This document shows, piece by piece, positions 1-2,112 of a DNA stretch of 6,385 bases. The translations under genes and the position numbers were made by a program. Under the pieces are notes generated by a model, which saw nothing but the letters and a program-made list of their open reading frames with translations, was not told the origin of the DNA and did no database searches. Position 1 is the stretch's first letter; the number at the start of each line of letters is the position of its first letter. This DNA is from Candidatus Atribacteria bacterium (GTDB lineage: Bacteria; Atribacterota; JALVIU01), in NCBI GenBank assembly GCA_027028665.1, contig JALVIU010000021.1, forward strand, positions 1 through 6,385, written 5' to 3'.

Positions 1-788
1 CTATCCCTTGTCGTTCCTGCAATAGGAGTAACAATTGCCCTCTCTTCTGCCAAAAGCACATTTAAAAGGCTTGATTTTCCCACATTGGGTCTACCCACTA
101 TTACAGTCTTTACCCCATGGGAAAGTACCCTCCCTATGGCATAAGAGGAAAGAAGCTCCTCTGTTTTATCTATGGCACCTTGTATAAGATGTGAAAGTTC
201 CTTGTAATCAAGTGGGGTAATATCCTCATCAGGAAAACTAATAATTGCCTCAAGCCAGGATATAGCAGAAAGTATTCTATCCTCTATCTGTTTTAATCTC
301 TTAGAAAGACCACCTTTTAAATGCGATAGACTTATTCTCCTTGCCTCATCAGATGTGGCTTCGATAAGGGAAAGTACAGCTTCTGCCTGTGTAAGGTCTA
401 TCCTGCCATTTAGGTATGCCCTCTTTGTAAATTCACCGGGTGCTGCGATACGTGCCCCTTCTCTGAGGACAAGCTCCAGTATTTTATTCAGTATGAACAT
501 CCCACCATGACACTGAAATTCTATAACATCCTCACGGGTATACGTATAAGGCGCGCGCATTATAAGCATAATAGTTTCATCCAGTGGTTCGTTCTCTTTA
601 GGATCATAAACATAACCAAAATGTGCAGAATAAGAGGGAAAGGATGAAAAATTCACCCTTTCCCCGGTTTTATTTCTAAACAGTCTCTCAGCTATAGGGA
701 TTGCCTGTTTTCCACTTATCCTTACAATCCCTATCCCACCCTCTCCAGGTGGTGTAGATATAGATGCGATAGTATCAAAGTCGACTAT
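1..788 (-). CDS. mnmE: tRNA uridine-5-carboxymethylaminomethyl modification GTPase MnmE, 5' part (runs off the window)
   Basis: MnmE is a GTPase that works with MnmG to modify the wobble uridine (U34) of certain tRNAs, using a folate-bound one-carbon unit. About 262 codons are visible without a stop. The N-terminal folate-binding domain starts [19 protein letters not shown] (residues 5-23) and later has [26 protein letters not shown] and SFPDEDI, all family hallmarks. The G domain begins with the P-loop GRPNVGKS (residues 232-239) and the switch I segment TPIAGTTRD (254-262), where the window ends. The G3/G4 motifs and the C-terminal catalytic Cys lie outside. No standard start exists: the in-frame stop at 810-812 is followed by no ATG, GTG, TTG or CTG before DTI. 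I place the start at ATA (786-788), 7 nt after AGGAGGT. This gives M-V-D-F-D-T-I, matching E. coli M-S-D-N-D-T-I in length. It overlaps the end of jag by 14 nt. Identity is certain; the start codon is inferred. Confidence 0.95.
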
Positions 789-1467
789 CTTTTCTACCTC
801 CTCTTCCGCCTACAGGATAAATTACAACCCTCCTCTTCGGCTCTCTACCCTCACTCTTTGTGGTAATGTATGGGTCTTTTTTCAAAAGGTTATGCACATA
901 TCTACGCTCCACCGTACTCATCGGATTCAAAGATACAGTTTTACCTGTATCCAGTGCACGACTTGCTGCTCTTCTTGCCACCCTCTTTAGATATGCCTTT
1001 CTCTTTTCTCTGTATCCATCAAGATCCAGATATAGATTTTTCTCAAAACCCTTCCTTGACGAAACGATATTTAAAAGATACTGAATGGCATCAAGGGTTT
1101 CACCATGTTTTCCAATGATGATTCCTCGGTCATCAGAGTGAATTTTTAAGAAAAGCTCATTATCGTCTCTATTAAATACCTCTATATTCGCACTTATTCC
1201 CATAAGCTTAAATATGGTGTTTAGATATTCCTCTGGAGAAAAATTTGGATCTGATCTTTTTAGCAACTCTCTTCTTTCATAAGAAATTTTTATACGTACG
1301 TTTTTTGAGCCAAAGAATCCAAAGAGGCCCTTTCCCTTTTCCTCTACCTCTTCAATATTATAATTATAATCTCTTCCGAGTTCATCCAGGGAATCCACAC
1401 CAATCATAGAAAGCGCCTCTTTAATTGCCTCTTCTTTTGTTTTTCCTACCCCTTCCACTTCTTTCAT
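775..1467 (-). CDS. jag: RNA-binding protein Jag/KhpB (Jag_N, KH and R3H domains)
   Basis: This is a 230-aa cytoplasmic RNA-binding protein. In Gram-positive bacteria Jag/KhpB (also called SpoIIIJ-associated protein or EloR) pairs with KhpA and affects cell elongation and mRNA levels; its role here is inferred from family only. Three domains are visible in order. The Jag_N domain (about 1-60) has [16 protein letters not shown] and KGLFGFFG. The KH domain (about 80-150) has the GxxG loop GKHG at 119-122. The R3H domain (about 155-218) has the R-x-x-x-H signature at R188-H192 (RRYVH). A short basic tail, [10 protein letters not shown], ends the protein. The ATG follows yidC by 18 nt and is preceded by AGGAGGA at 1477-1483 with a spacer of about 9-10 nt. 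The length is typical. The yidC-jag-mnmE order is widely conserved and supports the call. Confidence 0.96.
796..802 (-). promoter_or_regulatory. Ribosome binding site of mnmE (decides the ATA start)
   Basis: The minus strand reads AGGAGGT here, followed by a 7-nt spacer (AGAAAAG) and then ATA at 786-788. It is a full match to the anti-Shine-Dalgarno consensus. It lies inside the last codons of jag, where it also encodes the Gly/Arg-rich tail. Its spacing is the main support for initiation at the ATA. Confidence 0.75.
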
Positions 1468-1485: not shown

Positions 1486-2112
1486 TTAAGAAACAGCACC
1501 TTTTTTCGATTTAAAATCAATATAGTATCTCAGAAGCACATCTAAAAGACTCGACATACCCCAATAAAGGACTACTCCAGTCGGGAGTTTAAGACTTATA
1601 TAGCCTATAAATAGGGGCATTATAATGAGCATAGTTTTATTCTGCGATGTTTCACCTTCAGGAGACATTACCTTTTGTTGTAGAAAACTCAAAACCACAA
1701 TAAGTACCGGGAGTATATAGTAAGGATCCGGTTTTGAGAGGTTCCACAACCCCAAAAACTTTGTGTTTCCAAAGTTATAAGTGTTTAGTACCCTGAACAA
1801 GATCCAGAGTATAGGAAGCTGTATGAGCATGGGAAGACAACCACCAAATGGATTCACTCCATGCTCCTTATAAAGCTCCATCGTTTTCTTATTAAGTTCC
1901 TGTGGGTTATTTTTATATTTTTGCTGTAATTCTTTTATAAGGGGCTGGATCTTCGCCATTTCCCTCATAGAGTTTATCTGTTTTATAGTAAGGGGATAAA
2001 GCACCAATTTTATTACAACTGTAAGGAGAATAATAGCCATTCCATAGCTATGGGTTATTCCAAAAAAGAACTCTATAATATTCCGAAAAAGTACATATAA
2101 CCAGTCAAACAA
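1486..2112 (-). CDS. yidC: Membrane protein insertase YidC, short form (YidC/Oxa1/SpoIIIJ family)
   Basis: YidC inserts membrane proteins into the cytoplasmic membrane, alone or with SecYEG. The 208-aa product is the short form: five hydrophobic segments (about 24-42, 94-112, 131-147, 161-176 and 177-197) and a charged cytoplasmic hairpin (about 43-85) between the first two. The E. coli type has an additional N-terminal membrane anchor and a large periplasmic domain, both absent here. No lipoprotein Cys is seen near the N-terminus. Family motifs include [27 protein letters not shown] and DPYYILP. The groove arginine of E. coli (R366) aligns with Lys35 ([10 protein letters not shown]). The start is TTG at 2110-2112, just after GAGG; it overlaps the yidD stop by 8 nt, and the N-terminus (MFDWLY...) resembles clostridial short YidCs. 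The C-terminus is short and only weakly basic ([10 protein letters not shown]). Confidence 0.95.

Follow-up and report, generated by a model that had tools for sequence, protein, structure and literature searches.

The codon AUA matches the CAU anticodon of initiator fMet-tRNA at its first two positions only, and IF3 normally rejects it. The AUU codons with which infC and pcnB of Escherichia coli begin are also discriminated against by IF3. In Staphylococcus aureus the AUA starts of infC, ccpN and citZ, each with an extended Shine-Dalgarno (SD) sequence, have been proven experimentally, and reporters for the AUA starts of ccpN and citZ and the AUU start of cvfC1 gave ~10% of the AUG yield, with up to 30% for ccpN (PMC13009471). 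For E. coli, AUA is quoted as giving up to ~1% of AUG (Hecht 2017, via PMC12864459), and in a strain where the rpoS ATG has become ATA the protein is reduced 5-fold at most (PMC12864459). Coupling by termination-reinitiation (TeRe) at overlapping genes is described as well documented (PMC6728339).

We have analysed a window of 6,385 nucleotides, a single 6.4 kb contig of a MAG-like assembly (1.79 Mb, 413 contigs, 90% complete), which carries the 5′ part of an mnmE gene. This mnmE is probably a genuinely AUA-initiated gene, which would be rescued by a strong SD sequence and by coupling to the upstream gene jag, with a low output of MnmE. The relevant features are as follows.

3 to 788, minus strand: mnmE, first 262 codons (Pfam TrmE_N, MnmE_helical and the beginning of MMR_HSR1; TIGR00450)
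786 to 788, minus strand: ATA, the putative mnmE start codon, the sole well-placed near-cognate codon between the in-frame stop and the conserved DTIA
796 to 802, minus strand: AGGAGGT, SD sequence by its letters and spacing, inside the jag coding region
810 to 812, minus strand: TAG closing the mnmE frame upstream
654 to 656, minus strand: GTG, the first conventional in-frame codon; a start there deletes 44 residues of the TrmE_N domain
775 to 1467, minus strand: jag (KhpB-like), the upstream gene, an open reading frame whose homologues precede mnmE in most same-phylum loci

The minus-strand letters of the mnmE frame are TAG GCG GAA GAG GAG GTA GAA AAG ATA GTC GAC TTT GAT ACT ATC GCA. The original prediction, that the stretch from the TAG (812-810) to the conserved D-T-I-A contains no ATG, GTG or TTG, holds base for base, and the GTG at 656-654, 44 codons on, is indeed the next conventional codon, with the loss from the N-terminal domain that had been foreseen. 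The family models agree on where the protein should begin. In the frame taken from stop to stop, Pfam TrmE_N (PF10396) is matched over its full length (profile 1-117 of 117, E 3.4e-43) with its position 1 at residue 13, and NCBIfam NF003661 aligns from its position 4 at residue 12. The ATA is residue 8, and thus these alignments place the natural N-terminus of MnmE either there or one codon later. Further along lie the helical domain and the inserted G domain (PF12631 positions 1-96 and PF01926 positions 2-35), the remainder being past the contig end. The frame is open and conserved through all 262 codons, with ~50% identity to relatives, until the contig ends inside mnmE at codon 262, before the region of the C-terminal CxGK motif; the 3′ part was not found elsewhere in the genome assembly. 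RNA structure around the start is unremarkable (z 0.24), and a plasmid search gave no match.

The ATA is well placed with respect to its SD sequence. The predicted AGGAGGT is present and perfect, with 7 nt between it and the ATA, or 8 nt when counted from the last G of GGAGG. By the latter count the strong SDs of this genome (strong being 7+ matches) mostly stand 5-8 nt before ATG starts, so that the mnmE spacing is optimal for the source genome. There are 217 strong SD sites in 2 × 405 kb, or ~1 per 3.7 kb of strand, and thus a random ATA would have one suitably placed (5 positions allowed) in ~1 case in 750. The SD may owe part of its perfection to the GGRGGR tail of Jag, which tends to spell AGGAGG.

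The 3′ end of jag reads GGA GGT AGA AAA GAT AGT CGA CTT TGA, and the mnmE frame is shifted by +1 from it. The TGA (775-777) lies 8 nt beyond the ATA, giving an overlap of 14 nt between the two genes, which the original prediction did not mention. TeRe pairs have stop and start codons that overlap or lie close together, and jag and mnmE are arranged in this way. We suggest that AUA 786-788 would be read by initiator fMet-tRNA with a single third-position mismatch, and that the pairing of AGGAGGT with the 3′ end of 16S rRNA would offset the weakness of the codon. Ribosomes brought by translation of the overlapping jag would also compensate, since those finishing at the jag UGA, 8 nt past the AUA, would already be at the mnmE start. 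The outcome would be a low level of MnmE that depends on jag translation. Initiation at AUA, coupling to jag and reduced yield are all elements that we infer from the sequence, while the low-expression role would follow by analogy with the measurements in S. aureus and E. coli.

How do the relatives start this gene? None of those compared is nearer than the same phylum, the source genome being alone in its family. In the same-phylum mnmE loci sampled there is an ATG shortly before the conserved N-terminus, with one exception (L025) that has only GTG/TTG. Thus the ATA of the window is derived, not conserved. The original prediction had looked for support in an ATA conserved in relatives together with the same SD, and this was not found among the same-phylum relatives; it had also named ATG in relatives, taken together with a lack of variation in the reads, as evidence against the start, and on the first of these points these relatives do use ATG, GTG or TTG. 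The overlap is another matter. In two same-phylum loci (L025 and L026) and one from another phylum (L028) the jag stop falls at the same mnmE codon (xxT GAY), overlapping mnmE, which indicates that the overlap architecture is common to them and the ATA is the derived change.

We surveyed 110 mnmE loci from many phyla for a conventional start near the N-terminus, and four are without one: the window, an ambiguous case (L013), and two from the unrelated Campylobacterales (L077, ~2995, plus strand; L099, ~3001, plus strand). In the latter two the mnmE ATA lies in ATAA and ATAG overlaps with the jag stop. Each of these MnmE sequences is ~59-60% identical to its nearest sampled neighbours, which have conventional starts, and thus ATA probably arose more than once.

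Several other genes in the source genome begin in a comparable manner. hisF ends AGA TTA TAA and hisI reads ATT ATA AAG GAT (hisIE, L112:1848-2492, minus strand), where the first GTG would cost 15 residues. hisIE in turn ends GAG AGA TAG, and birA (L112:1201-1875, minus strand) reads GAG ATA GAG GAA behind AGGAGG; a start at its first TTG would lose the GSTSD motif. mnhF ends AGA TAG and mnhG (L140:557-1009, plus strand) reads ATA GAG ATT ATT, its first TTG lying within the first membrane helix. All three genes are thus without a usable ATG, GTG or TTG, and have an ATA with an SD-like sequence. At the hisF/hisI, hisI/birA and mnhF/mnhG junctions the ATA overlaps the preceding stop as ATAA or ATAG. 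An adjacent ATT is possible in hisI and mnhG, so that ATA is firm for mnmE and birA, the others being ‘AUA or AUU’. An MFS transporter gene with a perfect SD (L120, minus strand) reads TAAAGGAGGTGAAAAAAATA GTA AAA, the sole alternative being a GTG inside the SD, and it probably also starts at ATA. The infC gene, encoding IF3 (L133:14757-15305, minus strand), starts with ATT behind AAGGGGTGAT, like E. coli infC, and an ATT or ATA start is probable in two more genes (that of an SLT-domain protein in L205, and one in L212). For BirA, HisIE, MnhG and IF3 the N-terminus according to NCBIfam models coincides with these codons or lies a few residues from them at most. Taken together, AUH codons (AUA, AUU) begin roughly 1-2% of the sampled genes. 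As a separate observation, hisF, hisIE and birA form a chain of overlaps (L112:1201-2492, minus strand) with ATAA and ATAG junctions.

These genes bear directly on the rival explanation that survives best, namely that the true codon at 786-788 is ATG, and that the ATA reflects a mistake in assembly or consensus, or a strain variant present in the minority. One G-to-A change would be enough, the relatives carry ATG, and the window, at 6.4 kb, is one of 413 contigs in a MAG-like assembly. Yet HisIE, BirA and MnhG lack starts likewise, and since several conserved genes without ATG, GTG or TTG begin with ATA or ATT, base-call errors cannot explain the pattern. In our sample of the genome (405 kb in 57 contigs, with 355 closed ORFs of at least 100 codons) so many changed start G's would require an error rate of ~1% per base, at which long frames like those observed would not stay open. 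We therefore consider this explanation unlikely. The original prediction had set a real AUA start beside an ATG-to-ATA error; the other start-less genes favour the former and leave no need of the latter, with a small chance of an error at mnmE alone.

It is quite unlikely that mnmE is a decaying gene whose start has gone, or one giving only a truncated protein from the GTG at 654-656. That GTG is the first conventional codon and the assembly lacks the 3′ part of mnmE, but the contig end accounts for the missing part, and the GTG has no good SD in addition to its cost to the folate-binding TrmE_N domain. All 262 of the 262 codons present are open and conserved with no signs of decay, and nearly all the relatives searched have an MnmE (matches in 99 of 101 genomes, some only by way of related GTPases).

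A third explanation dispenses with a separate mnmE start, and draws on one further feature.

774 to 780, minus strand: CTT TGA T at the jag stop, resembling by sequence the prfB +1 frameshift site

Here a +1 slip at the CUU UGA that ends jag, as in prfB, would generate a Jag-MnmE fusion. The CUU UGA of such a slip site, on which the original prediction did not remark, is present within the CTT TGA T (780-774), and the +1 frame is exactly that of mnmE. However, in prfB the stimulatory SD lies only a few nt from the slip site, whereas here it is 15 nt upstream of the CTT, and the +4 base is T. The CTT is not kept in relatives that have the jag stop at the same mnmE codon, and those relatives have an ATG, GTG or TTG of their own. 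The geometry suits initiation from the SD to the ATA better, and we regard frameshifting as very improbable. No prfB-like GGGG-N3-CTTTGAY was found in the source genome. Initiation at another nearby non-canonical codon, such as AAG (789-791) or GTC (783-785), is the least probable of all: AAG is one position off AUG and 5 nt from the SD core, but its mismatch is in mid-codon and it is reportedly among the weakest start codons in the work of Hecht et al. in 2017, while ATA is better spaced and recurs in birA, hisIE, mnhG and the MFS gene.

AUA initiation thus stands as the probable reading for mnmE, but a bulk, genome-wide habit of AUA starts is rejected. AGGAGGT-N5-7-ATA occurs 34 times in comparison with 32 in the reversed control, and among the matches listed and read only those in mnmE and the MFS gene resemble starts. 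Counting ATA behind 7+ SDs in the 405 kb sample gives 26 cases where ~15 are expected, an excess that is suggestive only. Overlaps of 4 nt were counted by codon, and most matches are antisense frames, and for this reason we lean on the genes named above and leave the raw counts aside. A relaxed IF3 was considered as well. The source genome has IFSGRE where E. coli IF3 has RFRGRE, and two other solved IF3s, presumably from thermophiles, have MFRGRE and RFKGRA; given these, the variation is not obviously special, and it remains a lead.

Some further start codons were noted in passing. In rnpA of Sulfurovum and its kin there is no ATG, GTG or TTG before the conserved N-terminus in 22 of the 22 loci in which the motif was found (L056, L062, L065, L066, L071, L075, L079, L081, L082, L083, L085, L087, L089, L091, L095, L098, L100, L101, L102, L103, L106 and L111). 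An ATC or ATT is kept there, within the end of rpmH or directly after it, and this looks like a conserved non-canonical start. One of these loci, L091, is from Sulfurovum sp. AR, not listed as a MAG, so the pattern is unlikely to be a MAG error. A probable YidC frame in Sulfurovum (L075, ~460, plus strand) overlaps the previous stop as CTAA with no ATG, GTG or TTG listed near, perhaps another non-canonical start. In the window itself the listed yidC ORF (1486-2112, minus strand) begins with TTG, and its frame looks complete from there.

More widely, we put forward tentatively, as something rather short of an even chance, that AUA is a recurrent and overlooked start at gene overlaps, where termination-reinitiation, often together with an SD, would keep it working. 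hisI, birA, mnhG, mnmE with its longer overlap, and the two Campylobacterales mnmE genes would be examples. In a change from ATGA to ATAA the TGA becomes TAA, which is still a stop, as the ATG becomes ATA; passage from ATAA to ATAG preserves both. The upstream stop is retained throughout, and thus selection acting on it is blind to the loss of the downstream ATG. A general habit of ATAA and ATAG starts is not proven, the counts being small and the comparisons of 34 with 32 and of 26 with 15 giving no proof. Were AUA starts to cluster at coupled overlaps, they would have a simple evolutionary route, from ATGA to ATAA or ATAG, and would offer a cheap way to a low protein level dependent on the upstream gene. 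They would also allow the extent to which reinitiating ribosomes evade start-codon control by IF3 to be tested directly. On the practical side, gene finders that accept only ATG, GTG and TTG would shorten or lose mnmE, hisI, birA and mnhG.

The start proposed here shares its essential elements with several known systems. With E. coli infC and pcnB it has in common a near-cognate AUH codon, and infC of the source genome also has ATT; it differs in the codon, AUA, and in the gene, mnmE, for which we know of no autoregulatory logic. Like infC, ccpN and citZ of S. aureus, mnmE has AUA behind a long SD at normal distance, with low expression expected. The S. aureus starts were established by Ribo-Ret, with reporters in addition for ccpN and citZ, whereas that of mnmE is read from sequence evidence and lies in the jag overlap. 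The ccpN codon is conserved as far as B. subtilis, and such conservation, true of ccpN though not of all cases, is not seen in mnmE, where the ATA is derived. In the E. coli rpoS mutant, too, one G-to-A change has altered the start codon and some expression is left, but that is a recent laboratory mutation, while here it would be the wild-type state of several genes. In common with TeRe pairs, jag and mnmE are co-directed and overlapping, with the SD inside the upstream gene; the overlap of jag/mnmE is 14 nt long, and the ATAA or ATAG of hisF/hisI, hisI/birA and mnhF/mnhG are not among the forms given in the abstract of that account (PMC6728339). AUA starts with extended SD sequences are already known, and it is the AUAA/AUAG overlap pattern that is the freshest part.
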